Shown here piece after piece: positions 8,779 to 63,455 of a stretch of DNA of 64,000 nucleotides; position 1 is the stretch's first letter; the number at the start of each line of letters is the position of its first letter. The translations under genes and the position numbers were made by a program. The DNA is from Oncomelania hupensis (lineage: Eukaryota > Mollusca > Gastropoda > Littorinimorpha > Pomatiopsidae). The DNA lies in contig CM072523.1 in assembly GCA_036898135.1 (NCBI GenBank), positions 4,099,959-4,163,958 on the forward strand, in the 5' to 3' direction. Below the pieces are notes generated by a model that was given only the letters and a program-made list of their open reading frames with translations, was not told the origin of the DNA and made no database searches.

Positions 8779-9025
8779 TTGAGCAGCCTTTTGACCTGGA
8801 AAAGTGATTACATTGGTGAAGCATAATCTGTCTCAGGCTCTGACCTTTGATAAAGTCGGGCACATCATCTCAAGGTCACGCAGATCCCTTCATGCAGAAC
8901 AGAAATGTCAACTTGTGTTTTGTGTTAGAGCGCGCGCGTGTGTTTCCTTTAAAAAACCGGCCAGCAATGACGTAAAAAAAAACACGGGTACCTACCGCAA
9001 CCAAACCGTCAATGGCTTTGATTGC

Positions 9026-14931: not shown

Positions 14932-17085
14932 TCCTATCCTATCCTGTCCCGTAACTTGGAGGTGGTAGGGGCAGCACAGATGATCGTTTAACCAGCATAC
15001 TCCATCTTTCTCTGTCCTCAGCAACCCTGATGGCTTCGCCCAGTGTCAAACCAGTCCATTCTCGAATGTTGTCCTCCCACCTCTTTTTCGGTCTCCCTCT
15101 TCTTCTACCTCCTTGCACTGTGCCTTGCAGAATGGTCTTTGCAAGGCCTGATGATCTGGAGACGTGGCCATACCATCAGAGTTTCCGTTTCTTCACTACT
15201 GTGAGCATGTCATCGTGTTGTCCAATAGCTTGTGTGATGGTCTGTCGGACTTTGTCGTTGGTGATGTGTTGGGTATAGGAAATGCCCAGAAGTTTTCTGT
15301 AGCACCTCATCTCCATGCTTTGTATTCTCAATTCGTTGTAGATCTGCATGCTGTGAGGGTCCATGCTTCGCAAGCATAAGGAAGATGGAGATGACAAGGG
15401 AGGGCAGCAGTCTTACTTTGGAATGTAGACTGATGGTACTGTCTTTCCAAATGGGCTTTAACCTTGTCAGGGCAGCAGTTATTTGTGCGATCCTGGAGAG
15501 GACTTCCTGTCGGGACCCATTGTCTGATACAATGGCTCCTAAATATTTGAAGCTATGCACTGTGTTGAGGGATTGGCCTTGGACTTTGATGTCCGTGTTG
15601 ATGCCATTGGTATTGTTGGTCATCATTTTGGTCTTCTCTGCACTTATTTCCATTCCATAAGCTCTGGAGGCGGTGTCAAGCCTCTGTACCAGCTGTTCAA
15701 ATCTTTGTTCCTCTCCTGCCAACCCATCACTGTCATCCGCAAAACAAAGATTGGAGATTGCTCTACCCCATATGCTCTCTGTGCCTTCGTGATCTGCAAG
15801 GGCATCTGACATGATGCGCTCTAGGAAGATGTTGAAGAGTGTTGGAGAGAGTAGGCATCCTTGACGCACACCGATTGTTGTTCTGAACCAGTTACCGATG
15901 GCGCTGTTATGGAGGACTGCACTGGTAGCTTTGTCATACAGGCGTTTTGATGACTTCAATAATTTTAGGGCTAATGTTGTACACTTTCATTGTTGCCCAT
16001 AGAGCTGCATGCCAGACTCGGTCAAACGCCTTCTTGAAGTCTATGAACACATGATATAGATGCTGTTGGTGCTGTAGGTATTTCTCACAGATTATTCTGA
16101 GGTTGAAAATCTGTTCAGTGGTACTTCGTCCTGCCCTGAATCCTGCTTGTTCTTCATCTATGATTCGTTCAGTTTGGGGTTTTAACCTGTTGAGTATTAT
16201 TTTCAGGAGGACTTGCTGGGATGGCTGATGAGGCTGATGGTCCGGTAATTTTCACACTCTTGAAGGTTACCTTTTTTGGGAAGAGTGATGACAAGCGACT
16301 GGGTCCATGGTGTAGGCCACTCCCCACTATGCCAGATCTTGTTACAGATAATGGTGATGGCATCAATCATCGCTTCTCCTCCTGCTTGAAGCAGTTCCGC
16401 GGGTATGTTGTCCACCCCCGCTGACTTCCCATTCTTCAGCGATTGCACTGCTGCCTCAACTTCTTCCCGGAGAATTGGGAGGATTTCTTCTTCTTCTCTG
16501 TTCTCGAGACATGCTAGAACTGATGGGTCTCCATTTGGTGTATGGTTGTAAAGGTCAGAGCAGTACTCTGTCCATCTGTCACTTCTTGTTCTTCTGTAAG
16601 GCATATGCCAGACTTGCTTTGGATCGTGGAGACTGTGGGCTGATTAACACTTGTCAGTTGCTTCACAGTCTGGTAGGCCTTCTTGCTGTTGTTCTTGTTC
16701 AGACTGTTCTCTATTTCATGGCATTGATCTTCTATCCAGTTCTCCTTTGCAGTGCGCATGCCTTTTCGGATGTCATTGTTGATTTTTCGGTAAACATCAG
16801 CTTCCTGAGAGGTGTTCTTTTTTTTTTTTTTTTAAAATCTCTCTTCGTTTATCACACAGATCCAAAAGTTCAGGTGTGATCCACGGCTTCTTCCTTGGTA
16901 GGTACTTGCCAAGGATCTCAGTGGCGGTATCTGTCGCAGCTGAGTTGAAGGTGGTGGTCATGGTGTTGACATCTACTTCACCGGACCCCAAAATGAGCAG
17001 TGGTGAAAATTTCCCTCCAATTGTGGCCTGAAATAATTCTGCCACCTCCGGGTCTTGCAGTTTGTCCAGGTCGAACTTCAGTCTA
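14932..17085 (-). pseudogene. RTE-like LINE, 5'-truncated and frameshifted
   Basis: Minus-strand fragments line up as the C-terminal part of a LINE polyprotein. They are a linker near 16800-17080 (ending PWITPELLDLCDKRREIL); RT segments at 16203-16604 (GKSAGVDNIPAELLQ, ENYRTISLISHPSK); the RT palm at 15400-15959 (GVRQGCLLSPTLFN, CFADDSDG in place of the usual FADDIDG, SFKYLGAIVSDNGS); and a C-terminal region to 14935 (MEMRCYRKLLGISY, WTGL). The frame is broken near 16820 by a poly-T tract and also near 16600, 16200 and 15390. No endonuclease domain is present. The 3' end is a short tandem tail (complement of CCTATCCTATCCTGTCC), as usual for RTE-type elements. It is a dead copy. Confidence 0.85.
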
Positions 17086-20356: not shown

Positions 20357-20718
20357 GTGTGAGTGTGCCCAGACGTGAAGTTGTCTCGTAATTGTCTTGT
20401 GGTGTCCGAGTGTGTGAGGCGTGATTCGGTGAGAGTGTGCACCCCAGCGGGTGGTTGGAGGGAGTCAGGTCGCTGTTTAGCGGAGGCTCACAGCCGGCCT
20501 GGGTTCGACCACACGTGAGGGAAGGGGCCATTGCACTCTCCAACCGGTTCGCTACCTCGCAGGCCAGTTTCCACTGTTTGAGTGGGAGGAGGTGGGCGAT
20601 AGGTAGGGAGATAGCTTAGATAGGTAAGTTAGTATCTAGGGCTAGGCTAGGTTAGGCTAGGGTACGTAGGGTTTTTGACTTGTTGTTGTTGGTTGTTGTT
20701 GCTTTCCTTGTAAGCAGG

Positions 20719-23575
20719 ATGGCATCGATCGAGGAGGCTGAAGGAGTGTCACCGATCGCGGCTCGTACGCGTTCTCGCGTGGGTGTCACGATGGACGAGC
20801 GGGCGCTGACGTCAGCGGTGGATCCAGGAGACACCGATCTACCTTCTACGATCGAGCAGCGGAGATCGCCGGTCAGGTCATCGCGTCGTGGGTCAGCAGA
20901 CGACGAGTCGACGACGATGGAAGCCAGAGACACAGTGAGTGACCCTTTTGTGACGGGATTTGGCGCGACTGGCGGGATGTCAACGGGCGCCGACTTCTAC
21001 GGAGACCAAGATCGCCTGAGCGACGCAACGAGGCCGAAGAGATTCGAGACCAATCCTTACCGTTCGATCTACAAGGTCGAGGCGGCACCGACGCCGAGGA
21101 CAGGACCATTCGCGGACGAGACGCCGATAGAAAGGATCCTGAGGCTCGCCAAGCGCGAAGGACTGAAGGGTCAGGCAGCGTTAGACTACGCGATGGACCA
21201 AGCAGAGAGGGAGAAAGACTCAGACTGGAGAGTGAAGGAGAGGGAGATAGAGCTGCAGGCGAGCCGGGAAGATGCAGACCGACGAGAGAGAGAGAGAGGG
21301 GGAAAGAGAGCACGAACTAGCGATGGCGCAACTTAGGTTGCAAGCAGGCGCCGGGAACCGCAGGAATCAACCCGAGTTCGAGACGGTCAAGCTTAGGTTA
21401 CCGTTCTTCGAGGATAAGGACGACCTAGAAACCTACTTGTGTCAGTTTGAGCGATTCGCCAAGGCTCAAGACTGGAAGAAGGACACGTGGGCTATTCGCT
21501 TGGGGACCTTGCTGAAGGGGAAGGCGAGGGAAGTTTACGTTGGTGAATGAGGACGACTCTGCCGACTACGAGATCCTGAAGGCAGCGTTGTTGGTGCGCT
21601 TCAACCTGACGGCCGAGACGTATCGCAAGAAGTTTCGCCAGCTACGAAGGGAGCCACCAGAGACTTTCAAACAGTATCTGCGGAAGTCAGAGTTGTTCCT
21701 GGAGCGCTGGATGGGACAAGCGAACAAGAAGGCCACGTATGCGGATTTACTTGACCTGGTGCTGATGGAGCAGATGGTCAACGGTTTGACACCAGAACTG
21801 GTCACGTTCGTGCGCGAACGCAACCCAGCAACGGTGGAGGAGGCCGCGACGTTAGCGCAGCAGTACGTCGACGCCAGGGCGGGAACCAACCTACGTTTCC
21901 CACCACGTCAACCCTTTACACCCAGGGACAAGAGCGAGGGTCGCCAGCCAGCGGGACCACGACCCAACTCGCCGGACAAGCGGGAGTGCTACAGCTGTGG
22001 GCAGAAGGGGCACTTGAAGCGAGATTGTCCGAAACGCAGCGAGCGAAGTGGAGGAGCGTTGCGCATCTTGAAGGAGGCAGGCAAGAGGGGAGATCCTCGG
22101 TTCCAGAGCCAAGTGGTAGTGGAAGGTGTTCCGCTGACGGCTGTGAGGGACACGGGGGCCGACTTGATTTGCCTGCGGAAGGGGGAGGTTGCCAACCTCA
22201 AGTATACAGGACGCACGCGGCGCGTAGGATTCGCCATTCGCCAGCGATCCAAGTCACTGCCAACAGCGTGGGTACAGCTGGAGTCGCCATTCTACACCGT
22301 GAGAGTGGAGGTGGTGGTGGTGCCGGACTTAATCTACCCAGTGGTGATCGACAACTGGGCGAGAACGGAACGGCAGCCAGACACAGCACTGCCGGTATTC
22401 GTCGAGGGAACCGCAGAGTGTTGCGCGTTGCAGACTCGAGCGCAAGCAGCCAAAGAGACAGACGCTGCGGAACCATTGGTGGCCGGACCGAGTAAGAACA
22501 TCGTCGCCACGCCAGAAGAGATTCGCCAACTGCAGTTGGGAGACGACGAACTTGCAAAGGTACGGCAGCTAGCGGACCGGAAGGCAGGGAAGGAGGAACG
22601 AGGCAAGGGGCAAGTGGCATTTGTCTGGAAGCGGGGCCTGTTGTACCGCGAGTATACAGGACAGGACAAAGTGGATCGCAGTCAGTTGGTGGTACCAACC
22701 AAGCTTCAGTCGGAGGTGCTACGCATGGGACACGACACGCCTATGCCTGAACACCGAGGAGCCAAGCGGACCCTGGATCGAGTGTGGGCCGAGTACTACT
22801 GGCCAGGGATGTGCCGTGACGTGAGGAGGTTTTGTGCTTCATGCGACGCATGCCAGCGAACGACGCCAAAGGGGAGAGCCAGGAGGGTACCGTTTCAGAG
22901 AGCCAGCAAGAACAGGAAGTTGAAGCGTCACACGGAACGTAGAGTAGAACCGGAAACGACTGTGGCCGTGGTGATCGATCAGGCGGAGACAGAGGGGGCG
23001 ACAGAGATCAGCTACCAGGGCACTGTACCGCTGATACCGCTACGAGCGAGCGAAGGGCCAGTGGACGTGCAGATGGACACGGAGCTGTCTGTACTACATG
23101 AGAGAGCACTGCCGCTAACCAACCTGGACGAGTGCGAGGTGATGTCAACCGACGACGACCCCGTTCGTGTACATCAGCATCCGCTACCATTTTCACAGAT
23201 GGAAGTCGCCAAGGGTGAAGTGGAACCGATGCTGGAGTCGGGAGTTACCGAGTCTTGTTCATCGCCGTACAGAGCACCGATCGTGCGGGTAAGGAAGAAG
23301 GAAGAGGTCAACAGGACGGATGACTGCCAGAAAGCCTTGGATGACGTGAAGAGAGCGCTGACAAGTGAGCCAGTGGTAAAGCTACCAGTATTGGGGGAGG
23401 AGTTCATCTTGAGGACGGACGCACCTCAACAGTGCCAGACTCACCCGATGGGCTATGCAGTTGCAGGCCTATGTCTTCACGGTTCGACCGATTCCAGGAA
23501 GAGACAACATAGAGGCGGATTTCCTCAGCAGATCTGACCCTGTGGAAGATTAAGTTTTGAACTCTCCGTAGTTTC
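20719..23575 (+). pseudogene. gag-pol of element 2 with two frameshifts and three internal deletions
   Basis: Gag starts at ATG 20719 (MASIEEAEG). The frame shifts +1 within the GA-rich tract near 21290, and again near 21540. From 21540 to 23537 one frame of about 665 codons carries the end of the capsid, a CCHC knuckle CYSCGQKGHLKRDC, a protease DTG motif (AVRDTGADLICL) and an integrase H2C2 finger (HDTPMPEH... CDAC). It then jumps from VPFQ directly to post-integrase sequence, so the DDE core is missing. After SSPYRAPIVRVRKKEE it jumps to the RNase H entry (EEFILRTDA), so RT is missing. A third deletion removes most of RNase H, and the original terminus (RDNIEADFLSRSD) is read in another frame to a TAA at 23551-23553. 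Gag and protease are in one frame here, with no stop between them. Confidence 0.88.
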
Positions 23576-32250: not shown

Positions 32251-32625
32251 ACGATGGCACGGGAAGCTGGCCTATAACCCTAGAAACATTTCTATGAAGT
32301 TTTATCAAACCTGTCTCGTGGTTCTTGAGATGACGCGCTCCGTTCCGATCAACATTTGGATCTTTGTGGTTCCTGACCAGATACTGCTGGAAATAGGAAA
32401 AAAAAGCTAAAAATCAAGAGCTTAATATTACAGAAATATAAATAAATACATAAATAATGATGATGATGACGACGATGATGATGTCCACTTGTATAGTGCA
32501 AGTATTCATCCAACACGAATTCTCGGTATAAGGAGGATGCAACAATACTCAAACGATAAGAACATTAAATTTGTAAATTAATTAAAACTTGGTAATAGGA
32601 AAAAAATAAAATAAATATATGGGCA

Positions 32626-32635
32626 TAATGGAAAG

Positions 32636-32733
<98 letters not shown>
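32626..32733. repeat. (AG)n then (CAGA)n microsatellite
   Basis: About 28 AG units followed by about 10 CAGA units, ending 80 bases upstream of the start codon of the large gene. Confidence 0.97.
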
Positions 32734-32734
<1 letters not shown>

Positions 32735-32814
32735 TTGCATGGAACTTGCACTTGATCAACACAGTGCACGCTTGTTTGACACAGACCCAGTGACTACTGT
32801 CTTCGATCGTGACC

Positions 32815-35800
32815 ATGGCAACGCCTGCGAAGCTCGCCCGTTATGAAGACGACACGGTATTAACTACAGCGGTGAAGGACGAAGACTGGTGGTGGGTGGG
32901 AGACGTCTTGAGTAAAGGCGTGGTGTCAGACGGCCAGCGTCAGTGGGCTGTACAGGAGGCAAGTGAGAAAGCAGATGACTTTGACTTTTGTCATAACATC
33001 TTGCCTCACTGCAGTGATGGTCAGCGAGACTCAGTGCTGACAACGCTGGTGACACGACGTATGTGGAGGTCTGTAGGCAAGTTGTTGCAGCGAGGTGTTA
33101 GTGATGAACAACGTAGATGGGCTGTACAGGAGGCAATTAAAGAAGAAAATGACATTATCTTTTGTTATAACATCTTGCCTCACTGCAGTGATGATCAGCG
33201 GGACTCAGTGCTGACAACGCTGGTGACACGACGTATGTGGATGTCTGTAGGCAAGTTGTTAGAGCGAGGTGTTAGTGATGAACAACGTAGATGGGCTGTA
33301 CAGGAGGCAAGTAAGAAAGCAGAGGACTTTATCTTTTGTAATATCATCTTGCCTCACTGCAGTGATGATCAGCGAGAGTCAGTGCTGACAACGCTGGTAA
33401 CACGACGTATGTGGATGTCTGTAGGCAAGTTGTTAGAGCGAGGTGTTAGTGATGAACAACGTAGATGGGCTGTACAGGAGGCAAGTAAAGAAAAAAATGA
33501 CTCTGACTTCTGTAATGACATATTGCCTCATTGCAGTGATGATCAGCGAGACCAAGTGCTGACAACGCTGGTAACACGACGTATGTGGAGGTCTGTAGGC
33601 GAGTTGTTACAGCGAGGTGTTAGTGATGAACAACGTAGATGGGCTGTACAGGAGGCAAGTAAAGAAAAAAATGACTCTGACTTCTGTAATGACATATTGC
33701 CTCATTGCAGTGATGATCAGCGAGACCAAGTGCTGACAACGCTGGTAACACGACGTATGTGGATGTCTGTAGGCAAGTTGTTAGAGCGAGGTGTTAGTGA
33801 TGAACAACGTAGATGGGCTGTACAGGAGGCAAGTAAAGACAAAAATGACTTTGACTTCTTTAATAACATCTTGCCTCACTGCAGTGATGATCAGCGAGAC
33901 CAAGTGCTGACAACGCTGGTAACACGACGTATGTGGATGTCTGTAGGCAAGTTGTTACAGCGAGGTGTTAGTGATGAACAACGTAGATGGGCTGTACAGG
34001 AGGCAAGTAAAGACAAAAATGACTCTGACTTCTGTAATGACATATTGCCTCATTGCAGTGATGATCAGCGAGACCAAGTGCTGACAACGTTGGTAACACG
34101 ACGTATGTGGATGTCTGTAGGCGAGTTGTTACAGCGAGGTGTTAGTGATGAACAACGTAGATGGGCTGTACAGGAGGCAAGTAAAGACAAAAATGACTCT
34201 GACTTCTGTAATGACATATTGCCTCATTGCAGTGATGATCAGCGAGACTCAGTGCTGACAACGCTGGTAACACGACGTATGTGGATGTCTGTAGGCGAGT
34301 TGTTACAGCGAGGTGTTAGTGATGAACAACGTAGATGGGCTGTACAGGAGGCAAGTAAAGAAAAAAATGACTCTGACTTCTGTAATGACATATTGCCTCA
34401 TTGCAGTGATGATCAGCGAGACTCAGTGCTGACAACGCTGGTAACACGACGTATGTGGATGTCTGTAGGCAAGTTGTTAGAGCGAGGTGTTAGTGATGAA
34501 CAACGTAGATGGGCTGTACAGGTGGCAAGTAAAGAAGAAAATGACTCTGACTTCTGTAATGACATATTGCCTCATTGCAGTGATGATCAGCGAGACTCAG
34601 TGCTGACAACGCTGGTGACACGACGTATGTGGTGGTCTGTAGTCAAGTTGTTACAGCGAGGTGTTAGTGATGAACAACGTAGATGGGCTGTACAGGAGGC
34701 ATGTAAACGCATTAAATGTAAGGATGATGATGATTATTTTGATGAAGATATGTTTTGTACTTACATCTTGCGTCACTGCAGTGATAATCAGCGAGACTCA
34801 TTGCTGCAAACGCTGGTGACACGCGGTATGTGGAGGTCTGTAGGCGAGTTGTTACAGCGAGGTGTTAGTGATGAACAACTCAAATGGGCTGTACAGGTGG
34901 CAAGAAAACGCATTAAATGTAAGGATGATGATGATTATAATGATGATTTTGATGAAGATATGTTTTGTACTTACATCTTGCCTCACTGCAGTGATGATCA
35001 GCGAGACTCAGTGCTGACAATGCTGGTGACACGACGTATGTGGTGGTATGTAGGCAAGTTGTTACAGCGAGGTGTTAGTGATGAACAGCGTAGATGGACT
35101 ATACAGGAGGCAAGTAAGGATCCGTTCAGCGAAGATGCTGCACTGGTCACTGCTGAGTACTGCAGTGATGATGATGTAGATCATGTGCTGACAACGCTGG
35201 TAACACGACGTATGTGGAAGTCTGTAGGCAAGTTGTTAGAGCGAGGTGTTAGTGACGAACAGCGTAGATGGGCTGTACAGAAGGCGATTACTCATGCAGA
35301 TAACCCGTACTTCTTTTCCAACGTCCTGTCTCACAGTGACAATGACCAGTTGGAGTCAGCGGTAAGAACAGTGATGGCACAAAGGGTGTGGAAAGGTGTA
35401 GACAATCAACACACATTGAGAAACCTGCACATGCTTCTTGAACAACGTCAGATCAAACTTTGTGATGCCACTGTACAAGTCGCAAGTAAGACATGTAGTC
35501 ACTCTGACTTCTTCACATACATATTTCCTCATTGTACACACGATCAATGCACGTCGTTGCTGATGTATTTCATAAACCATGGAGCGTGGCATCACGTGGA
35601 AACCATCCTAAAACAAAAACAACAACACATCGCTAAATCGGAGATAAAGGTGTTCACTGACAACGTCAAAAAATGGAATGCAGACTTTCTCAACTGCAGT
35701 TCTATGTTTGAATCGTCTGTGTTATCTTCTTGTAGTACTGCCCACATTGCAGAGGAGCTACACAAGATGGTGGGGCAGGGGTTGTGGGATAACGTAGCTT

Positions 35801-38800
35801 TGATTTTGAAGAAAGGAGCAGACGATAAGATAAGAAGATGGGCCGTGGAGGAGGCTTGTAGACATGACGACAGTGAACACTTCACTGAAATCATATTGCC
35901 CTTTTGTGATGATGACCAGGTTGGCACGATCCTTCTGCACTTTGTCAGAGGTGCACAATGGGAGGCAGCTGACGAGGTACTGAAGGGAAAGGTCAAGGCT
36001 GTTCAACGGAGATGGACCATAGAACAAGGGGCAAGTACTGCTAGTGATGCTGACTTTGCTCAGTATATTCTGCACCACAGCGACACAGATAAACTGAAAA
36101 ACTTGTTTCAAACTCTGATAACACGGCGTATGTGGCTGTCTGTGGATAAAGTATTGGGAAAAGCTGTGAACGATTTATTGCTTAGCCGTGCTGTTACTTC
36201 TGCGGTACAATGGTGCACCGATTCTGAGCTGACTTATCACATTCTGAAACACTGCAAGGCTGAGCAACTGGTCGCCTTATTTACATCACTGATGGAGAAA
36301 GGAATGTGGCGAGCTGTCGCCTACGTCATTGATAAAGGCCATGTCAGCGATCAACAGAAGATACTAGCTGTCAAAGAAGCCAGCAAAGTTGCCGATGAAG
36401 AACTCTTGTCTTCCATGTTAGGTTGTTGCCCAAACAGCGTCCATGACCGAATCTTATCCAATGCAGTGGACAGAGGCCAGTGGTCTGTGGTGGCTAGATT
36501 GCTGGCAGGTGGAGTTTCTGACAACCTTCTACGGTCAGCAGTGGAAGAGGCCTGTAGGAAAGACAGCGGCGAACATTTTGTGGAACACATATTTCCCTAT
36601 TGTGCTGGTGATCAAGTGGACAGAGTGCTGAGTACTCTGGTTGATAGGAAACAATGGCCAGGAGTTAGCACAGTAATGTACCATAAAGACTGCAGTGAAA
36701 GCGCTAAGAGAGTGGCTGTAGGTTCAGCTCTGAAAACAGCAAATGGCTTGGATTTAGTGAGGTACATTCTTGACCACTGCAATAATGCAGAGGTTTACAC
36801 ACTGCTCTTATCCCTTGTAGACAATGGACAGTGGGGAGCTGTTGGACAAATATTTAAAAGGCAGAATCTGATTAAAGGGAGGAGAAAATGGCCTTCGGAG
36901 ACGCCCAGCTTGAAGACAGAGTTACATGTATACGCACTTGGAGAAAATGGACAATGGGAAGCTGTTGGACACGAACTGGAAATGGAGAATCTGACTGAAG
37001 AGAGTAGAAAATCGCTTTTGGAGATTTCCAGCTTGAAGATTGGTTTTGCAGACTTTTGCATAGAGATGTTGCCCTATTGTACAGGCGAAGAATGCAGTTC
37101 GTTGTTGACGCTTATGATCACACACAAAAAGTGGCAGCATGCTGAGAAACTTTTAAGCAAAGTCAACAGCGATAAGCAACAATGGGCAATTGGTCAAATC
37201 AAACAGCAACAGACTCAGTATTTGTATGAAAGCAGCGTCTTTGACTTGTATATGCTTACGCTGTCCACTGGCCAGCTGATTGAAGAGGAACTTCCATACA
37301 TAGTTGAACATGGGTACTGGAAAGCTGCAGGTAAAGTCCTAAGCTTTGCTTCACGACCAGAGCAAATACAGTCTGTCGTATTAGAAGTCTGTATGAAGGC
37401 TGACGATCCTGACCTGACAGAGTTCTTCCTGCCTCATTGTCCGAAAGAACTGTTGGAGTCTGCACTGACCATCCTTGTGTCACGTGGAATGTGGAGGGCA
37501 GTAGGATTTGTTCTGCAACGAGGCATCAGTAGGTCCAAACACGAGTGGGTTTTTGAAGAAGCCATGCAACATGCAAGCGTCATTGACTTCACTGATCATC
37601 TCCTCCCGTACTGCATGGACGACTCCCGTGACAACGTGTTTGCCTTTCTCGTGAGTAATGGACAGTGGGAAAGCGTGGGAAAGTTACTTTGTCAGGGTGT
37701 TAGTGAGCAACAACGACAACACGCCATTGAGGAAGGCAGCACTCGGGCGGATGGCTTCCAGTTTGCAGAGTACATTTTGCCACACTGTGTAAATGAAGAA
37801 CTTCAGCCTGTCCTGAGTCAGCTACTGAAAAGACAACTGTGGGATGCAGTGGGTGTGATACTAAAACGCGGTGTACCTACAGACGTCCACAAATGGGCAT
37901 TGGAAAAATCAATCCTAGCTGCTGATTACTCTGATTTGATGAAGTACATTTTTCCATTCTGTAGCAGATCACAGTATGACAAGGTCTTGACTAAAATGGT
38001 AAATGAAAATCACTGGGAAGACTTAATCCATATTCTCAAGCAACTAGTCACGGATGGTAATGCCCGTGAACAAATCCAGAAGGCCTGTGCTGACAAGGAC
38101 ATGGATAAGCTGTTGGTGTTCTTCTCACGCTTTAGTTGTTGGAGCTCTGTCCAGGCTATACTAAGAAAAGAAACAAGTTGTTTACAAGCGCTGGACGTTT
38201 CTCACTCTACATTTGATGGGACAGATGTTGTAGTTCTCATTGAAATCCTGGCAAATAAAAGGTATTGGTCAGCTGTAGGAGAAATCTTGCAGCAAAAGCT
38301 TAGTATATTCAAGAGTCAAGGTTCTTCTGGTTCGTCCACATCGCCCAGTCTTAGGTGGTTCGAGGAGCGGGTTGTACCCAGTATTCCCGACAGCGATGTG
38401 GAGTCAGTAATATTACAGCTGTCGAATCGATGTCTGTGGCAAGCAGTGGACATGGTGTTGAAGCGCAGAGTTCCTGATTCCAGTCATAAACTGGTACCTC
38501 AGCAGGCTGTTATATTTGCGACTCGTGAAGAGTTTAAAACATACATCTTCCCACATTGCAATGAAAGGGAACAACTTTGTTTCTTTATTCAACATGGACT
38601 TTGGGTGGACGTGTGCGATATGCTTGTGCTGAAGAGATCGACAACAAGCGAACATCTTGCCTTTTTGACGCAGTCAGCAGACAACAGAGTTAACATGGCA
38701 GCCATTGGAGCGGAAATACTTGCCGGTTCAGAAATAAATCCAGACAAGAATAAAATTCTTGATGTCCTTACCAGGCTGTGGGCAAAGTCTAAATACGAAG

Positions 38801-41226
38801 AGTTTCCATCGTTGATCTTCAGAGAAAAAATCAGGGACAGTTCAATAAAAAATCAACTTGGAGACCTGAATACAGACATATCGCATTTCTCAAATTTGTG
38901 GAAAACCCTGCGTAACATTGCAAATGGACACTGCGATGTTGAAGTTTTTATCTCCACAGTGAGAAAGTTACTCAGTTCCAACCTCTACAGACCGTTATAT
39001 ACACTGAGCGAATTCACGATATTCCTCATGATGTTCTGCAGTTATTCCACTCCGTCAACTACCAAAATAAATCTGCTCGTGACAGCATTGTCTATTTTTC
39101 CAATATTTTCAGATGTTCAGAGTGTATTATTGAGAATACTACTGCGTGAAAGAAAATGGGAAATCATCAGACTTGCAGATCTGACTTATGTCTGGGAGCA
39201 CGTCAGGCGAGAATTGTTTGAAACGGCTGTGAAAGAAGGACAATGGACAGAGGTTAAACAGTGGTTAAACCACACTTTATACCATGATCAGCAATGGTGG
39301 GCAATGGGAGAAACGTTTGAACGGAAGCAATGGGATGTATTCATGCTGCTAGCAGACTATGGACTGACAGACCGAGAACTGATGCGCGCACGTTTTCACG
39401 TAGCAAAGAACGGAGACTGGGGCACTGTGATGGCCATGTTGGACCATGGGGCTGACATCAGGGAGATACGCCAATTTTTGCAAGGGGCAAAGGGTGGAAG
39501 GTTTCGCCCATCTCACCAGAAAACCGTGAGGTGCAACAAACTCATGGCCAAAAAGCTACTATATATTGAACAGATGCTGTACAAAAACTGCAGACTTCCA
39601 AGGTCAGAGCAGTATTGTGAGTGGAGAACGCTTCTTTATAAAATCACTCAAGCACGGCCACTTGGCTGTCAAGTGTCGTCGTCAGTTCTTGAGGAAGCTT
39701 TAGAGCACAATGCATGGCCTGTGGTCAAACACCTGGCAAAGCATGAACTGGACCTTACTCAGAGAAACTCATTGTTTCCTCAGATGGTGGAGCGACAGCA
39801 ATGGGGCTGTTGTCGCGAGCTGTTAGAGAAAGGCCTGGATGTTCAGCTCTGTTTGCAAAGCTTGCCGAAACTGCTAGATCTTAGTCAGTGGCTGCTGGTG
39901 GCAAGAATCATGGAATACAATGTGGGCGAGTCGGTGAGACGAGACGTAATGCAGCGAGCCATGGAAAGAAGGGAAGGCAGTGTGGTTTGGCACTGCATTA
40001 GCACAATGCACGGTCACTTGTCGATTAATGAACGACAAATTATGTTCGAACAGTCGATTGAACGTGGTGTATGGCAAGCAGTCAAATGTTTGATTGAAGT
40101 CGGAGACAGTATGGGAATTACTCAACGAGACATAGCTCTGAAACAGGCGATACTTGAGCACAAATGGGATGTTGTAGACCAATGCCAACGTTTCCACGCT
40201 GATATAAACAAACATGAGGATGATGAAGACAACCCTCTGAAGACTGCTGCCCAACGCTGGGATTGGGAGGCAGTAGAAGAGATCGTGATGCGGGATGGGG
40301 ATCAGTCGCAACTGGACAAAACTGGTCGCAGTGTATTGCACAGGGCTATTGCAGCTGAAGAGTGGCAGGTTGTGAAGAAACTGATTCAGTATCATGGAAA
40401 TCTTAGTCTTGCTGACACTGTCTCAGGCACTACACCACTTCAAATGCTGATTGACAAACGCCAAGGAGAGATTCTCGAGCTTGCCATCTTGTGGAGTCCA
40501 GATCTATGCAAGGGAATTAATTCTAGAGGAGAGACACCACTGCATGCTTGTTGTATCTCAGGATGGCCAAAGTACATGTATTATCTGGTTACCAGAGGGG
40601 TTGATCCTTTGCGTGTAACAACAGAAGGGGAATCTGCGTTAATGTATGCTGTGAAGAACGAGTATCCTCAGAGGATGGTGGCTGAATGTATCAGGCTAGG
40701 TTTTAGTACTCATCAACCTGCCATTGCGGAATTGTGGTATATGCCGCGACTACAAGGCTGGGAAGTCTTCACCTCTCCGATGGAACTGGCTATTGTGAGG
40801 AATATGCCCATCATCTGTGCCATGCTTTACGAGTCTGGAGCCAGTTCAAACCATCATCTTTTCTCACTTTACAGACAGTTGCCTGAGTTGCAACAATGGT
40901 ACACTCACCATGGAACCACAGAGGCGAACACATCTGAAGGAAAAGCACTCAAACAAATTTACCAGTTTGTGGAGAAAGTAGCTACCACACCTCGAAGGCT
41001 GACATCCATGTGCCGTTTGGTCATTTCACATGCCTTTAACGTTCGTGGCAAGCGTCACAAAGAAATTGAACAGCTGTACAAGCTGCGGGTCAAGGGTCAC
41101 ATGAGACAGAAGTACGAGTTCTTGCCCGTACCACCAAGCGTCATATCTTACCTATTATTTGACGAGCTTTCCGATTCAAGATATGGTTCTGACCCCGAGC
41201 TTCTTTCGAGCATATTGCAGGCATAA
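32815..41226 (+). CDS. giant tandem-repeat, ankyrin and SOCS-box protein (predicted Cullin5 ligase receptor)
   Basis: One uninterrupted frame of about 2,803 codons. I chose ATG 32815 because its context (GTGACCATGG) is a strong Kozak match; an in-frame GTG lies 6 bases upstream. Residues about 15-1900 are tandem 58-residue units with the pattern VLTTLVTRRMW..VGKLLxRGVSDEQRRWAVQEA...FCNDILPHCSDDQR (pattern, not sequence). The first 14 units are nearly identical and later ones diverged. Ankyrin-like repeats lie at about 2503-2690 (GRSVLHRAIAAEEWQVVKKL, GETPLHACC, ESALMYAVKNE). The C-terminus (about 2725-2785) is a SOCS box: BC-box LTSMCRLVI and Cul5-type LPVPP. ASB-family proteins with ankyrin plus SOCS box recruit substrates to Elongin B/C-Cullin5 ubiquitin ligases; the same role is inferred here. 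No signal peptide or membrane segment is seen. Lack of stops over 8.4 kb in a transposon-rich region argues for selection. The substrate is unknown. Confidence 0.88.
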   Translation: MATPAKLARYEDDTVLTTAVKDEDWWWVGDVLSKGVVSDGQRQWAVQEASEKADDFDFCHNILPHCSDGQRDSVLTTLVTRRMWRSVGKLLQRGVSDEQRRWAVQEAIKEENDIIFCYNILPHCSDDQRDSVLTTLVTRRMWMSVGKLLERGVSDEQRRWAVQEASKKAEDFIFCNIILPHCSDDQRESVLTTLVTRRMWMSVGKLLERGVSDEQRRWAVQEASKEKNDSDFCNDILPHCSDDQRDQVLTTLVTRRMWRSVGELLQRGVSDEQRRWAVQEASKEKNDSDFCNDILPHCSDDQRDQVLTTLVTRRMWMSVGKLLERGVSDEQRRWAVQEASKDKNDFDFFNNILPHCSDDQRDQVLTTLVTRRMWMSVGKLLQRGVSDEQRRWAVQEASKDKNDSDFCNDILPHCSDDQRDQVLTTLVTRRMWMSVGELLQRGVSDEQRRWAVQEASKDKNDSDFCNDILPHCSDDQRDSVLTTLVTRRMWMSVGELLQRGVSDEQRRWAVQEASKEKNDSDFCNDILPHCSDDQRDSVLTTLVTRRMWMSVGKLLERGVSDEQRRWAVQVASKEENDSDFCNDILPHCSDDQRDSVLTTLVTRRMWWSVVKLLQRGVSDEQRRWAVQEACKRIKCKDDDDYFDEDMFCTYILRHCSDNQRDSLLQTLVTRGMWRSVGELLQRGVSDEQLKWAVQVARKRIKCKDDDDYNDDFDEDMFCTYILPHCSDDQRDSVLTMLVTRRMWWYVGKLLQRGVSDEQRRWTIQEASKDPFSEDAALVTAEYCSDDDVDHVLTTLVTRRMWKSVGKLLERGVSDEQRRWAVQKAITHADNPYFFSNVLSHSDNDQLESAVRTVMAQRVWKGVDNQHTLRNLHMLLEQRQIKLCDATVQVASKTCSHSDFFTYIFPHCTHDQCTSLLMYFINHGAWHHVETILKQKQQHIAKSEIKVFTDNVKKWNADFLNCSSMFESSVLSSCSTAHIAEELHKMVGQGLWDNVALILKKGADDKIRRWAVEEACRHDDSEHFTEIILPFCDDDQVGTILLHFVRGAQWEAADEVLKGKVKAVQRRWTIEQGASTASDADFAQYILHHSDTDKLKNLFQTLITRRMWLSVDKVLGKAVNDLLLSRAVTSAVQWCTDSELTYHILKHCKAEQLVALFTSLMEKGMWRAVAYVIDKGHVSDQQKILAVKEASKVADEELLSSMLGCCPNSVHDRILSNAVDRGQWSVVARLLAGGVSDNLLRSAVEEACRKDSGEHFVEHIFPYCAGDQVDRVLSTLVDRKQWPGVSTVMYHKDCSESAKRVAVGSALKTANGLDLVRYILDHCNNAEVYTLLLSLVDNGQWGAVGQIFKRQNLIKGRRKWPSETPSLKTELHVYALGENGQWEAVGHELEMENLTEESRKSLLEISSLKIGFADFCIEMLPYCTGEECSSLLTLMITHKKWQHAEKLLSKVNSDKQQWAIGQIKQQQTQYLYESSVFDLYMLTLSTGQLIEEELPYIVEHGYWKAAGKVLSFASRPEQIQSVVLEVCMKADDPDLTEFFLPHCPKELLESALTILVSRGMWRAVGFVLQRGISRSKHEWVFEEAMQHASVIDFTDHLLPYCMDDSRDNVFAFLVSNGQWESVGKLLCQGVSEQQRQHAIEEGSTRADGFQFAEYILPHCVNEELQPVLSQLLKRQLWDAVGVILKRGVPTDVHKWALEKSILAADYSDLMKYIFPFCSRSQYDKVLTKMVNENHWEDLIHILKQLVTDGNAREQIQKACADKDMDKLLVFFSRFSCWSSVQAILRKETSCLQALDVSHSTFDGTDVVVLIEILANKRYWSAVGEILQQKLSIFKSQGSSGSSTSPSLRWFEERVVPSIPDSDVESVILQLSNRCLWQAVDMVLKRRVPDSSHKLVPQQAVIFATREEFKTYIFPHCNEREQLCFFIQHGLWVDVCDMLVLKRSTTSEHLAFLTQSADNRVNMAAIGAEILAGSEINPDKNKILDVLTRLWAKSKYEEFPSLIFREKIRDSSIKNQLGDLNTDISHFSNLWKTLRNIANGHCDVEVFISTVRKLLSSNLYRPLYTLSEFTIFLMMFCSYSTPSTTKINLLVTALSIFPIFSDVQSVLLRILLRERKWEIIRLADLTYVWEHVRRELFETAVKEGQWTEVKQWLNHTLYHDQQWWAMGETFERKQWDVFMLLADYGLTDRELMRARFHVAKNGDWGTVMAMLDHGADIREIRQFLQGAKGGRFRPSHQKTVRCNKLMAKKLLYIEQMLYKNCRLPRSEQYCEWRTLLYKITQARPLGCQVSSSVLEEALEHNAWPVVKHLAKHELDLTQRNSLFPQMVERQQWGCCRELLEKGLDVQLCLQSLPKLLDLSQWLLVARIMEYNVGESVRRDVMQRAMERREGSVVWHCISTMHGHLSINERQIMFEQSIERGVWQAVKCLIEVGDSMGITQRDIALKQAILEHKWDVVDQCQRFHADINKHEDDEDNPLKTAAQRWDWEAVEEIVMRDGDQSQLDKTGRSVLHRAIAAEEWQVVKKLIQYHGNLSLADTVSGTTPLQMLIDKRQGEILELAILWSPDLCKGINSRGETPLHACCISGWPKYMYYLVTRGVDPLRVTTEGESALMYAVKNEYPQRMVAECIRLGFSTHQPAIAELWYMPRLQGWEVFTSPMELAIVRNMPIICAMLYESGASSNHHLFSLYRQLPELQQWYTHHGTTEANTSEGKALKQIYQFVEKVATTPRRLTSMCRLVISHAFNVRGKRHKEIEQLYKLRVKGHMRQKYEFLPVPPSVISYLLFDELSDSRYGSDPELLSSILQA
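33029..35354 (+). repeat. 174-bp coding tandem array, 13 near-identical units
   Basis: Thirteen units begin GACTCAGTGCTGACAACGCT or close variants. Units 3-9 differ by only a few bases each, and alternatives (AAG/GAG, TTAGAGCGA/TTACAGCGA, GACTCA/GACCAA) are shuffled among units, as expected from unequal exchange or gene conversion. Units 10 and 11 carry extra lysine/aspartate-rich insertions. The array lies within the large coding region and keeps its frame. Confidence 0.95.
40987..41175 (+). other. SOCS box coding segment
   Basis: Encodes TPRRLTSMCRLVISHAF, a 28-residue basic linker, then FLPVPPSVISYLLFDEL. LxxxCxxxI fits the Elongin C-binding BC box, and LPVP fits the Cullin5-selecting LPxP core. 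The loop between the two boxes is longer than usual. Confidence 0.8.
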
Positions 41227-41749: not shown

Positions 41750-41850
41750 GTGATGATGATGGTGAGGGTGTTAGTGTGTGTGCAGTATAAATAAATATAC
41801 CATATATTGTCCATAATGTAGTGCCGATATTTGTTTCAGTAAAGATGTTA
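41227..41850. other. 3' flank of the large gene
   Basis: Probable 3' untranslated region. It holds a (GAT)n run at about 41712-41765 and a candidate polyadenylation signal AATAAA at 41790-41795. No second coding region is recognised. Confidence 0.5.
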
Positions 41851-42446
41851 CCCCCGTTGGGGTGCCGGGGGTTTCAGTATAAATAGTATCCCAACTTTCT
41901 GGAAATTTAGTGCTTTAAATTCCCACTGTCGCTGTCTTTTTCATTTGCTCTTTCTCATTCCTGCTCTTTTCTATCAATCTGCTATACTATCGTCTTCTTC
42001 GCTAGACCAGTCTCCTACCTTTTTTCTTGAAACTCTTCCGGGACAAGACTCCTTGTTTGTGTATGAGGTCTGTTGGATCAGCTTTGTAATATTGGACGCT
42101 TTCTACCAGGTGGTCACTAGGGCTTCCTATGATGTTATTATTTATCAATGTAGGCATGTTATATGTATGTGTTTTGTTGATAATTTATAATGATGTTTGT
42201 ATTCTATTTTGTTTTTGTAAACGGGGGTTCGATAAGTTGGGGTGAAGCCTCAGCCGTCCCCTGCGTGGGATGTCTTTATTGTAAAGTGACTGGCTGGTGG
42301 AGAGCTTTCGGTTTTACCACTAGGGTTGTTTCAGCAGATCTTTTATGCGGATCGGGGGTTGTCCGGTCCTGATTTGGCTCGGAAGCGTCCGCTGGACCTA
42401 AAGCAATAATAATGTAATGTAATGTAATGTAATGTAATGTAATGTA
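41851..42446 (+). mobile_element. retroposon family copy A, (TAATG)n tail
   Basis: Starts CCCCCGTTGGGGTGCCGGGG and TTTCAGTATAAATAGTATCC, and continues through CTATACTATCGTCTTCTTCG, GGTGGTCACTAGGGCTTCC and GTAAACGGGGGTTCGATAAG. It ends CTGATTTGGCTCGGAAGCG and CCGCTGGACCTAAAGCAATA plus repeated TGTAA. No protein frame is convincing. Tail-ended copies with variable short tandem repeats indicate a non-autonomous retroposon. Confidence 0.75.
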
Positions 42447-42652
42447 AACGGGGGTTCGATAAGTTGGGGTGAAGCCTCAGCCGTCCCCTGCGTGGGATGT
42501 CTTTATTGTAAAGTGACTGGCTGGTGGAGGGCATTCAGTTTTCCCACTAGGGTTGTTTCAGCAGATCTTTTATGCGGATTGGGGGCTGTCCGGTCCTGAT
42601 TTGGCTCGGAAGAGTCCGCTGGACCTAAAGCAACAATTATGTAATGTAATGT
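42447..42652 (+). mobile_element. retroposon family copy, 3' half, directly after copy A
   Basis: Begins AACGGGGGTTCGATAAGTTG and repeats the last 200 bases of copy A with few differences, ending GGACCTAAAGCAACAATTATG. Confidence 0.75.
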
Positions 42653-49455: not shown

Positions 49456-51411
49456 GTGCTAACATATGGATGGATGTATATACAGCAAATATCAGTATTA
49501 GAAACACCCGATGACGACCCTCCTGAACTTCCCCACCTAGATCACGAACTGACTGAAATTTTATTAACCCCAGCAGAGGTAGCCAAAGTGATAATAAACC
49601 TGGACAAAAGTAAAGCTGTAGGCCCCGATAAAATCCATAACAAACTATTACTGATATCTGCTGATATAATCTCACATACTTTAAGTCAACTCTTCAACCG
49701 CTGTCTATCAGAAGGATTGTTTCCAGATATTTGGAAAATTGCTCATGTAACGCCCATACACAAAAAAGGTCCAGCCGATATTTGTACCAACTATCGCCCA
49801 GTATATCTTTTAAGTTGTGTTGGTAAAGTCTTTGAGCGCTGTGTCCATACCCATGTCTTCTCATTCCTAAAAGACAATAATCTTATAACACCATCACAGT
49901 CTGGTTTTATTCCCGGGGACTCAACAACCAACCAACTACTTTGCATATATAATGAACTAACTTCAGCATATAACAGTGGAATCACTAACCAGTCAATTTT
50001 CTTTGACATCTCCAAGGCCTTCGACAGAGTATGGCACAAAGGATTACTAGCTAAGTTAGAGGCTATAGGTATTAGAGGTAAGCTTCTTCAATTGTTTGCT
50101 AACTATTTAGACCAACGAAAACAAGCTGTTGTCATTAAAGGTAGCAAATCAAACTATAAAACCGTTCCGTCAGGCGTACCTCAAGGATCAGTTTTAGGCC
50201 CCCTATTGTTCCTAATCTATATTAATGACATTGTGGATAACATTGAATCAGTTATAAAACTTTTTGCAGATGATACTAGCATGTCATTAACCCTAAATAA
50301 CCCAGACATACGAGCAGAAATTTTGAATTCTGATCTTCAAAAGATAAACGACTGGGCTAACACCTGGAAAGTTAGGTTTAATGAAGACAAAACAGAACTA
50401 TTAACTTTCAAACGTGACGCACTACCTAACAACCCATTAAGCTTCGGAAACGCAATTTTATCTGACAACGAATTCCATAAACACTTAGGACTAACACTGC
50501 AAAGCAATTGTAAATGGGATATCCATATAAGTAACGTCATAAAGAAAATAACCATCCTCCTATCATGCTTAAGAACGTATAAATATAAGCTGTGCAGAAA
50601 AGCCTTAGAAAATATGTACAAATCCTTTGTCCTACCTCACTTTGACTATGGCGATGTAATCTGGGATAATTGTACAGACACTCAAGCTGGTTTATTGGAA
50701 AAACTCCATTTAGAAGGTATTAGAATTATTGTTGGGGCGGTGAAGGGGACCAGCCATGAGTTATTGTATAGAGAGTCTGGACAATACACATTGAAGGAGA
50801 GAAGGAAAAGACATAAGCTACTTACTTTTCATAAGATGATAAACGAGTGCTGTCCTGAGTACTTGTCCAACTTGGTCCCACAACTAGTATCAGCAGTTAA
50901 TCCATATCACCGCAGAAGACCTCTAGAACGTAGAGTACCCCCATACAAAACTGAACTCTACAAAAATTCTTTTGTTCCTTCAACCACAGTATTGTGGAAT
51001 GATCTCCCCGAGGAAATTCAAGAGAGCCCATCCATTAGCTTATTAAAAAGACACCTTTCCAAAGATGATCCACTTGTTCCATTGTACTATTACCATGGGA
51101 CACGACAGCAGCAGGTTTTGCATGCCCGACTCCGACTTGGCGTAAGTAACCTTAATTATGACATGTTCCGCCGTCACTTGTTAGAAGACCCAGTCTGTCA
51201 GTGTGGGCATCCTGCAGAAACATCTGAACATTTCCTCCTTTTTTGCTCTACATTCGGCACTGTACGTACGCAGACAATTAACCAATTAGACCCTCCTTTT
51301 CGAAACATCAACACCTTATTGTTTGGCAGTGAACATCTCTCCCCACAAGAAAACGCCAACATCTTTACAAAAGTCCACACATTCCTCACATCTAGTGACC
51401 GCTTCGTTTAG
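49456..51411 (+). CDS. non-LTR retrotransposon reverse transcriptase, 5'-truncated
   Basis: An open frame of about 650 codons; the true 5' end is lost and the first ATG is probably not native. RT motifs in order: KAVGPDKIHNKLL (about 53-65); TPIHKKG (99); NYRPVYLLSCVGKVFE (112); SGFIPGDSTTNQLL (149); FFDISKAFDRVWHKG with catalytic D184; SGVPQGSVLGPLLFLIYIND (239); and LFADDTSM with D272 and D273. A C-terminal CQCGHPAETSEHFLLFC segment near residue 590 is probably metal-binding. The clade is Jockey/CR1-like by motif style. There is no endonuclease domain upstream, where other repeats sit. RT residues look intact, but the copy cannot move by itself without its 5' part. Confidence 0.88.
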   Translation: MLTYGWMYIQQISVLETPDDDPPELPHLDHELTEILLTPAEVAKVIINLDKSKAVGPDKIHNKLLLISADIISHTLSQLFNRCLSEGLFPDIWKIAHVTPIHKKGPADICTNYRPVYLLSCVGKVFERCVHTHVFSFLKDNNLITPSQSGFIPGDSTTNQLLCIYNELTSAYNSGITNQSIFFDISKAFDRVWHKGLLAKLEAIGIRGKLLQLFANYLDQRKQAVVIKGSKSNYKTVPSGVPQGSVLGPLLFLIYINDIVDNIESVIKLFADDTSMSLTLNNPDIRAEILNSDLQKINDWANTWKVRFNEDKTELLTFKRDALPNNPLSFGNAILSDNEFHKHLGLTLQSNCKWDIHISNVIKKITILLSCLRTYKYKLCRKALENMYKSFVLPHFDYGDVIWDNCTDTQAGLLEKLHLEGIRIIVGAVKGTSHELLYRESGQYTLKERRKRHKLLTFHKMINECCPEYLSNLVPQLVSAVNPYHRRRPLERRVPPYKTELYKNSFVPSTTVLWNDLPEEIQESPSISLLKRHLSKDDPLVPLYYYHGTRQQQVLHARLRLGVSNLNYDMFRRHLLEDPVCQCGHPAETSEHFLLFCSTFGTVRTQTINQLDPPFRNINTLLFGSEHLSPQENANIFTKVHTFLTSSDRFV

Positions 51412-58521: not shown

Positions 58522-61500
58522 CTACTGAGCGTTTCTGCTGAGGAAATCTGCTGGAACGTTGTCCTTCCCAGAAATGTGCTCCACAGACATTGAGAAAGGT
58601 TGCAGCTGAAGCGCCCATCTCATCAGTCGGCTGTTGGTGTTCTTCACCTGCTGTAGGTACTGCAGTGGCATATGGTCAGTCTGCACTACGAAAGTACGCC
58701 CGTACAGGTATTGACTGAACTTCTGCACACCCCACACCAACGCTAGACACTCCCTCTCAATGGTCGAATAGTTTCTCTCGGGTTTCGACAGTTTCTTGCT
58801 TGCACACGCAATAGGCTGTAGTCCCTGTCCCCTGTCCTGGCTCAAAATGGCCCCTACTCCATCCTCCGACGCATCTGTCTGTAGCACAAATGGCAGGGTG
58901 AAGTCCGGCAGACAGCACACAGGGTCAGAGCACAGCTTCTCCTTTAGGGTGCAAAATGCAGCTTCGCATGCCTCGGTCCATTGTACCGCCCCTGGCTTGC
59001 CTCCCTTGGTCAGATCGTGTAGTGGTGAAGCAATCGCTGAAAAGTTGGGTACGAACCGCCTGTAGTATCCGGCTAAACCCAAAAATGAGCGCACTTGCCG
59101 CTTGGTCGTTGGTCGTGGTGCATCTCGGATTCTCTCCATCTTTGACACCTCAGGACGAATTTCTCCCTGCCCAACCACGTGCCCAAGATACTCTACTCTT
59201 CGGAAACCCAAGTAACACTTTGATGGTTTGGCGGATAGCTGCACCTCACGCAACCTAAGGAAAAGACGCGCCAAGCATTCCAGGTGTCTCTGCTTGGTAA
59301 TGGTGGCTACCAACAAGTCGTCGACAAAATTGTCGATCTCCGACATTCCCAGGGGTGCTAGTAGCTTCCGCATCATGCGAGAAAAGACTGCTCCCGCCGT
59401 CTTCAGCCCAAATGGCATTACGGTCCACTGAAATTGTCCCTCTGGCGTTGTAAATGCTGTCTTCGCTTTATCTCCCTTGTTCATAGGCACTTGCCAGTAA
59501 CCTTTGGTCAAGTCGATCTTGGTGAGATACTTGGCCCCTGACAGTTTGGAGAACAAGTAGTCGATGTTCGGCAATGGTTCTGCATCGAATACGACGTGCT
59601 TGTTTAACTTTCGGAAATCTACGCAGAAACGCATCGTGCCCTCCTTCTTCTTTACCAACACGATGGGCGAGCTGTATGGCGAACTGGCCCTCTCAATGAC
59701 GCCCATCGCTAGCATCGCTTCCACTTCCTTCTTGATGGTCTCGTGATGCGAATGGGGAAGTGGGTACTGCCGCGTCCTCACTGGAATGTCGCTGTCCACC
59801 CGTATTTCGCACACGTCCAGTGTAGTGCGTAGTGGCAAGTCGGTTAGGACATCTTCGAACTGCCATACTAGCTCTTGCAATTCTTCCCGTATTTCTGGGC
59901 AATTGTCGTCCATCTTCACGTCGCGGGGCGTCTCTGATGCTGTCAAGGTGATTACGGGAATATCCCCAAACACCGGCATAGTTTCCTCCTCCTCTACCCC
60001 CTCGTCGTCTACGACGATCGTGGCCACCGTCGCTCTGGTATGGAACTTCTTCAGGAGATTGGCGTGGTACAGTTTGCTTTTCCCACGCATCCTGATCCGG
60101 TAGTCGCACTCTCCCACGCGTTCGATCACCTCGTACGGTCCTCGCCAAGCTAGCTGCAACTTGTTGTGCTTTTCTGGCAACAGTAGCAACACTTGATCCC
60201 CCGCGTTGAACAAACGCCGTTTCGCCTTCTTATCAAAGTGCCGCTTCTGCTTGGCTGACGCGGTTCTGAGGTTTCCTTGTGCCAACTTACATGTCTCCTC
60301 GATGCGATTACGCAAGTCTACCACGTACTGGCTACTCAGTTTCACCTCCTCCTCTTGTATCTCCTTGGTCCAGAGGTCTCGCAACACAGCCATCGGTCCC
60401 CGCACGGTCTTTCCATATAGAAGCTCGAAGGGAGAGAACCCTGTAGACTCTTGTGCTACTTCTCGGTATGCAAATAGTAGCGCTGGAATGTAGCGGTCCC
60501 ACGCTGTAGGTTGTTCTGTGGCTAACTTCTTGAGCATGGACACTAGCGTCCCGTTGAATCGCTCAACCAGTCCGTTGCACTGTGGATGATACGGTGTGGT
60601 AGCTTTCCCATGGATCGACAGTAGTCTGTTCATCTCCCGCATGACTTCAGACATGAATTGCGTCCCTTGATCTGTCAAAATTTCCCTAGGAACGCCCACC
60701 CTCGACCAAATCTCCCACAGCGCTTCTGCCACCCTCTCTGCCTCTATGCCCTTGAGCGGTACAGCCTCGGGATAGCGTGTGGCATAGTCTACTACCACTA
60801 GGATGTACATGTTACCCCGATCTGACTTGGGTTTGATGGGTCCCACAATGTCTACAGCCACCCTCTGAAATGGCTCGTCCACCAGCGGAAGTTGCTGTAG
60901 TGGTACCTTCCTCACCCGTCCCCTCGGTACTACCTTCTGACATTCTGGACAACTGGCGCAATATCTCCGTACTTCGGCACACATTCCCGGCCAATAGAAC
61001 GTTCCCCAGATCCGCTCCCTGGTACGTTTCCCTCCCAAATGCCCAGCCATGGGTGGATCATGAGCCAACTGAAGGATCCCCCCTCTCAACTGTTTCGGGA
61101 CTACCAGTTGCGTGACCTGGCTACCTCTCTTCGTGTGTACCCGGTACAACACCCCCTTCTTCTTGCGAAACTCAGCTGACGCCCTACCTGACGCTATCGC
61201 CCCACCACTCTGTGCCAACGTTCTCGCCTTCGCGAGCGTCTCGTCGGTCTCTTGCATCCTGATCAACTCTGGGGTGCTAACAGAGATCTGGGATGGTTCG
61301 ACCACTGCTAAGGGTACCTCCCTCTTCTTCTCGGCCTTCACCTGCGCCCGAGTCTGCACTGCTGCAGCCATCGCGCATTCACCTCCGAACAAGGAAACAG
61401 GACTCTTTTCCCCGCTATCAAACGTTACCCAGTTACCCAGGATGATATCGGGCCCGTCCTCGAAAACCACCAGCTCCACTCTCCCCCTGACCAGCGCACA

Positions 61501-63147: not shown

Positions 63148-63455
63148 GTCAGAAAAGAAGGGAAGAACAAATGTTAGTATACACAAAACAAATAACACTT
63201 AACTGGTACAAACACCTAACAGAATGAATACGCAACACAACAGTCACAGGAGCCGAGGAATCGTTCGCCGTCGTACCCCTAAAGGCGAGCAAGTGAACCC
63301 TGCAACCCAATTCCCCGTTAATGCTGCACTCCGAGTGTGATCCCTAGTGCAATACACCCACACTCCCGCCAACCGCCCGCTGCGTACCCTTTCACACAAC
63401 AACTCAAACACACAACATACACATCTGGCACTACCCTAACAAAATAAATGAGTCT

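Follow-up and report, generated by a model that had tools for sequence, protein, structure and literature searches.

A predicted giant repeat-ankyrin-SOCS protein in the snail Oncomelania hupensis and its family with variable repeat positions

ASB proteins such as ASB9 and ASB7 are Elongin B/C-Cullin5 receptors in which an ankyrin domain is followed by a C-terminal SOCS box with a BC box and an LPxP-type box. Expanded adapter families are known from Caenorhabditis: in the available part of one study the substrate-targeting C-termini of F-box proteins show peaks in the ratio of non-synonymous to synonymous substitution rates (dN/dS) in 73 of 95 and 25 of 37 paralog pairs, the F-box being conserved (PMC8665587), and the accessible text of another describes how virus and microsporidia induce F-box and MATH adapters in C. 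elegans, a response that the virus used on C. briggsae did not evoke (PMC5392922). Here we analyse a stretch of 64,000 nucleotides from the snail Oncomelania hupensis (assembly GCA_036898135.1, contig CM072523.1, positions 4,099,959 to 4,163,958, hereafter the window), which contains an open reading frame for a predicted giant repeat-ankyrin-SOCS protein. We read this protein, with a probability of about 0.6, as a substrate receptor of giant size that serves a ubiquitin ligase of the Elongin B/C-Cullin5 type, carries a diversifying recognition surface and probably acts in intracellular defence, the defence role being the least certain step.

The frame starts with an ATG at 32,815 in the context ACCATGG and has no internal stop up to the stop codon that ends at 41,226. 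From the N-terminus it encodes 58-residue units, diverged units, a conserved middle, an ankyrin domain and a SOCS box.

32815..41226, plus strand: predicted giant repeat-ankyrin-SOCS protein open reading frame (P0001), 2,803 codons, with relatives and paralogs
32944..34707, plus strand: tandem array of 10.1 homogenised units of 174 bp (58 codons), 94% matches
34651..38646, plus strand: diverged 58-residue units, residues 613-1944, hypervariable columns 20, 24, 49 and 53
39082..40227, plus strand: conserved middle region of two-helix repeats, residues 2090-2471

Paralogs of the window gene are likewise open from stop to stop over 2,994 (L009), 2,693 (L010), 1,889, 1,702, 1,701, 1,596 and also 2,446 codons. 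Because they too stay open over such long stretches, the comparison supports a gene with one long coding exon, to which an extra non-coding 5' exon may be added. The original prediction of an 8.4-kb frame with about 2,803 open codons was confirmed, and the single coding exon it named is supported. It had described one protein, however, and in this respect it needs extension: the frame is real, but it is not alone, as it belongs to a family of at least 30 loci in the genome.

The C-terminal part of the protein carries the putative docking module.

40228..40986, plus strand: ASB-like ankyrin domain, residues 2472-2724
40987..41166, plus strand: SOCS box region, residues 2725-2784
40999..41025, plus strand: BC box LTSMCRLVI, an Elongin C-binding motif by resemblance, residues 2729-2737
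41122..41133, plus strand: Cullin5-box-like LPVP, residues 2770-2773

A Pfam scan of the window protein found Ank_2 (E 2.5e-16) and SOCS_box at residues 2725-2754 (E 7.5e-4). The same SOCS model matches all 14 submitted C-termini of relatives (best E 2.4e-12) and reaches 33.1 bits in the paralog L016, while a profile built from the 14 C-termini finds ASB7 (E 2.8e-5), ASB9, SOCS4 and ASB8 in the PDB. Since relatives, paralog and profile agree, we consider the SOCS box of the window gene to lie beyond chance. A structure model of the last 714 residues has a predicted local distance difference test score (pLDDT) of 85, and its best matches among the solved structures compared are ASB9 and ASB7 bound to Elongin B/C, SOCS box included. 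Ankyrin repeats directly adjoin the C-terminal SOCS box, the arrangement that defines the ASB family. Throughout the family alignment the BC-box motif is present in 50 of 57 rows, and an LPLx/LPIx-type box is retained in most of these; at the Cullin-box position LGL stands in the C16 members with low scores (L020, L021 and L030-L032) and LRL in L019. An ASB-like C-terminus had been proposed from the letters of the window, with structure prediction suggested beforehand as a check, and relatives, profile and model all bear it out.

N-terminal to this module lies a very large helical-repeat region, in which a profile of the 58-residue unit has 36 matches, in line with the more than 30 extra helical units claimed earlier. 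The unit divides into two 29-residue halves that align in register over 19 columns (profile comparison, E 2e-4 for one comparison, with a probability of only 47%). Two-helix repeats, often spaced at 29 residues, are also seen in the C-terminal model, where Trp opens many second helices, as it does in the ankyrin repeat HRAIAAEEWQVVKKLI. Because register, spacing and Trp pattern coincide, the unit halves resemble ankyrin repeats with a shortened hairpin, judging from the C-terminal model. Weak Pfam matches within the repeats (PLN_propep, PUF, LRRK2 ANK, RNA_pol_L_2 and others) were set aside because they are short and fall in repetitive sequence.

We determined dN/dS by simple Nei-Gojobori counting on pairwise alignments. 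Pooled over six own-genome pairs, the ratio is 0.74 for the repeats, 0.51 for the middle and ankyrin part and 0.21 for the SOCS box, the last value resting on 18 replacement and 25 silent changes. For the window gene and L011 three repeat bins give 0.63-0.67, residues 1961-2480 give 0.21 and residues 2481-2803 give 0.36 (few changes); for L009 and L010 the repeat bins range between 0.49 and 0.72, followed by 0.18. Within the unit, columns 24, 49, 53 and 20 are the top four in variability among 392 distinct units from 26 relatives' proteins. They are regularly spaced, columns 20/49 and 24/53 being 29 apart and columns 20/24 and 49/53 four apart, and in the C-terminal model the variable columns mostly correspond to residues two and six of the second helix. 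Four non-overlapping own-genome pairs with 75 units were used to assess these columns, with a bootstrap over units. The four columns show a dN/dS of 1.80 with the dS of all sites (bootstrap 1.37-2.29) and of 1.65 with their own dS (1.14-2.60), compared with 0.59 (0.49-0.69) in the remaining columns, and in 5,000 random draws of four columns the proportion of non-synonymous differences (pN) of the real four was never reached. By pair, L020/L021 gives 2.66 and L016/L017 1.90. Among six genes of the C16 cluster, compared in overlapping pairs, all 15 pairs give values of 1.49-2.74, with 0.52-0.73 in the rest of the unit. A conserved docking part is combined with a putative substrate part under positive selection, chiefly in the C16 paralogs, as in diversifying ubiquitin-ligase adapters.

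A search of the genome with the C-terminus returned the at least 30 family loci (six on C13, 19 on C16, two on C10 and one each on C3, C7 and C2) together with generic ankyrin proteins that match only weakly. All six C13 copies share one strand; their starts are about 59-68 kb apart, and they form an array around the window gene. Only L009, L010 and the window gene are open throughout; the other three copies are interrupted, frameshifted or split. L012 is an N-terminal fragment on C13 with retroelement frames next to it and L013 some 12 kb further on. Both are probably one copy split by an insertion, and L012 is not counted apart from L013 in the total. In a quick tree the sampled C13 genes form one clade of their own genome and the C16 genes two clades beside one relative, several long-branch joins being unsure. 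Strong relatives make up 26 of 36 matches with the whole protein and 29 of 75 with the C-terminus, the remainder being mostly generic ankyrin proteins; the searches depend on exact words in common and on comparable length, so that remote relatives, or ones that are far shorter, may have escaped them. The relatives with species names come from Littorina saxatilis, Babylonia areolata, Nucella lapillus and Batillaria attramentaria, all Caenogastropoda. A separate observation concerns L033 (1481-8818, plus strand, on C2), the most divergent own-genome member with 2,423 codons from the first Met, about 25% identity and a SOCS box of 31.8 bits, above the Pfam cut-off; it is perhaps an outgroup to the expanded clades. 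A bacterial ankyrin effector was rejected because the genome measures 1.45 Gb and the close relatives with names are snails. A viral or phage origin was rejected as well, since neither a search of viral contigs with the window protein nor a near-identity search of phage records with 2.2 kb of the window gene gave a match.

Array members share one common solenoid and carry two anciently different C-terminal halves, and the window gene is a mosaic in this respect.

37912, no strand: approximate mosaic boundary, residue ~1700
32347..32814, plus strand: upstream stretch common to array members by DNA identity, probable promoter and 5' untranslated region
32,636-32,731: GA/GACA microsatellite inside the upstream stretch

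At residue ~1700 similarity to L009, L010 and L014 collapses, whereas similarity to L011 goes on. Before the boundary, which rests on the comparison of all these copies and on a finer scan against L014 (its misaligned L009 and L010 stretches were left out), synonymous differences from L009, L010 and L014 are mostly 0.02-0.18 per site, with a peak of 0.34 where repeat numbers differ; after it they rise to 0.57-0.88, near saturation. Compared with L011 they do not exceed 0.12 from residue 841 on, and with L013 0.09 from residue 1821 on. The flanks are split in the same way: upstream DNA is 96% identical to L010 over 1.4 kb and downstream DNA 98% identical to L011 over 0.93 kb. The upstream stretch itself is 92% identical in L012 and L014, 82% in L009 and part of the longer 96% match in L010, and in L011 the match is limited to the last ~115 bp (98%). 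From the switch in similarity and the opposite flank matches we therefore infer that solenoid half and C-terminal half have separate histories, through gene conversion or unequal crossing-over.

The 58-residue unit is also found next to other domains.

L034 1-2592, minus strand: unit and BIR domain
L035 246-2675, plus strand: unit and ZU5 domain
L022 3982-6027, plus strand: unit and ZU5 domain

BIR and ZU5 are domains of apoptosis and death-signalling proteins. A ZU5 domain stands in frame with the units in L022 and L035, both on C16 at 44.7-44.8 Mb, with a third C16 place at 44.81 Mb matching the search; the L022 frame has a stop further upstream, and a protein search with L022 found one protein among the 8,000 best candidates. 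The BIR domain accompanies the units in L034 (C5, 77.5 Mb) and in the metagenome protein P0113, both parts of which are matched by one frame at 77.98 Mb of C5. These combinations suggest that one recognition unit has been joined to different effectors.

In the proposed mechanism the constant tail of ankyrin domain and SOCS box would dock on the ligase, recruiting Elongin C and probably, where an LPxP-type box exists, Cullin5. The N-terminal solenoid, with its roughly 36 units, each built of two ankyrin-like helix pairs of 29 residues, would form the surface that captures the target, each helix pair presumably exposing two variable residues four apart on its second helix. The target may, as the original prediction proposed, be repetitive or assembled. 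A captured target would become ubiquitinated. The surface may diversify under positive selection, through changes in repeat number and by recombination between solenoid and C-terminal part, and the likeliest targets would be proteins of intracellular parasites or viruses. Regularly spaced diversification fits an arms race. The innate-defence role proposed at the outset thus gains indirect backing from diversifying selection and from the unit's place beside ZU5 and BIR domains, the role itself staying inferred.

Several points weigh against the receptor reading. The SOCS_box of the window protein scores 20.1 bits, below the Pfam cut-off of 23.5 bits. Its BC-box Cys is 36 residues away from LPVP (20 residues from Cys to LPL in L016), and the model is poor in this stretched linker, with a pLDDT of 48 at residues 2760-2769. 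The extra stretch between BC box and LPVP, YKLRVKGHMRQKYEF, resembles the box seen in the relatives (LPL..MKxYVxF), perhaps because part of the box was duplicated. In the BC-box consensus Ser, Thr or Pro precedes the Leu, in the window gene Arg does. Of the clear BC box and LPxP motif named in the original prediction both motifs are present, and the putative Cullin5 box is atypical; the SOCS-profile search it proposed gave a match, though one below the cut-off. The array neighbours L009 and L010, both intact frames, keep the BC-box-like TLLSTCCIAV without LPxP, and the Pfam SOCS match is absent in both. Regarding selection, gene conversion may bias the counted pairwise dN/dS. Taken pair by pair, the four-column signal is strong among the C16 genes, yet weak in the array to which the window gene belongs (window/L011 1.38, L009/L010 1.05). 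A looser set of 14 variable columns, tried first, gave a pooled dN/dS of 0.94; selection is claimed for the top four columns alone, and their choice was not blind, as the variability of columns in the own genome was known before testing. Exposure of the variable residues is deduced from the C-terminal model and not from the N-terminal units.

Some of these points would suit an Elongin-binding decoy or scaffold that works without Cullin5, keeping its BC box while the Cullin box drifts or is lost, some members then sequestering Elongin or partner proteins without ubiquitination. The C-termini of L009 and L010 and the stretched linker of the window gene would be expected from it, but most of the 50 BC-box rows retain the LPLx/LPIx-type box and the SOCS region has the lowest dN/dS, so that we regard it as unlikely. 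A receptor outside immunity, in development, gametes or selfish-gene conflict, whose solenoid diversifies against rapidly changing endogenous partners, would also account for diversifying selection and lineage-specific arrays, under reproductive or intragenomic conflict, and F-box genes feature in the available part of a paper on Caenorhabditis toxin-antidote elements (PMC12680543). The same unit beside BIR and ZU5 domains fits defence better, however, and we give this explanation little chance.

Under relaxed constraint the repeats would be filler in the structure, left to drift and kept alike by unequal crossing-over, with no selection favouring new binding. Overall repeat dN/dS below 1, the many broken array copies and the low four-column value of L009/L010 agree with it. 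Drift, however, cannot raise dN/dS above 1 at four structurally equivalent columns (lower bootstrap bounds 1.37 and, with own dS, 1.14), is at odds with the failure of all 5,000 random column sets to reach the real pN, and would not make identical columns the most variable ones in other species; among the three alternatives we hold it to be the least probable. We therefore retain the ligase receptor with a diversifying surface as the preferred reading.

Eight other frames of the window were scanned, six of which are retroelement proteins and two without match.

58522-63198, minus strand: LTR (long terminal repeat)-retroelement-type protein with reverse transcriptase, RNase H, integrase and a SCAN-domain (gag-like) match
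20680-23537, plus strand: LTR-retroelement-type protein, SCAN-domain (gag-like) match, zinc knuckles
1853-3535, minus strand: LTR-retroelement-type protein, SCAN-domain (gag-like) match, zinc knuckles
49456-51411, plus strand: reverse transcriptase domain, non-LTR type by look
15210-15959, minus strand: reverse transcriptase domain, non-LTR type by look

The stretch 6738-8779 is an array in which a 39-bp unit recurs in 52 copies (91% matches); its minus strand is open and reads as repeats like QYLTQGAVAKVKI. Downstream of the gene, at 41850-42600, GGGGGTTCGATAAGTTGGGGTGAAGCC... is present twice with TAATG repeats in between; the duplicated stretch is possibly a short interspersed element.

A wider and more tentative view is that caenogastropods hold a germline repertoire of modular arrays, one unit being wired to SOCS, BIR and ZU5 outputs, which together would act as an intracellular immune system. 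Each 29-residue helix pair would add two variable residues to one continuous binding surface, and the arrays would change as repeats are gained or lost, as single positions diversify and as solenoids are swapped between C-terminal modules. SOCS would stand for ubiquitination, BIR for apoptosis control and ZU5 for death or inflammasome-like signalling. The docking module is already of a known kind; among the matches listed from the open-licence literature searched we found neither such a recognition-array immune system nor the giant one-coding-exon form, the four diversifying positions, the exchanged C-termini or the BIR and ZU5 fusions. If the receptor reading holds, snails evolved their own large and fast-evolving set of ubiquitin-ligase receptors in parallel to the F-box and MATH sets of nematodes. 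The regular spacing of the variable residues makes modular target reading directly testable, and snail proteins listed as uncharacterized or hypothetical in databases gain a testable role.

DARPins, TALE and PPR proteins likewise set a small number of variable residues per repeat into a fixed framework. In DARPins it is the hairpin and the face of the first helix that vary, whereas the variable residues of the window family are predicted to lie on the second helix, and the analogy is one of architecture, not of ligand or code. With the Caenorhabditis F-box and MATH adapters, as presented in the available part of the study cited above (PMC8665587), the window family has in common an expanded family, a conserved docking domain and a substrate part with dN/dS peaks; docking domains and ligases are different there, and that part of the source describes no regular repeat surface. 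Another likeness is to the ASB proteins, which share the order of ankyrin domain and C-terminal SOCS box, with BC box and LPxP-type box by resemblance, and whose ASB9 and ASB7 complexes best match the predicted fold. The ASB chains matched comprise 257-305 residues compared with 2,803 in the window protein, and the window family departs from ASB proteins in its long N-terminal solenoid, which is made of 58-residue units, in having a single long coding exon, in its tandem array and in positive selection at regular positions.
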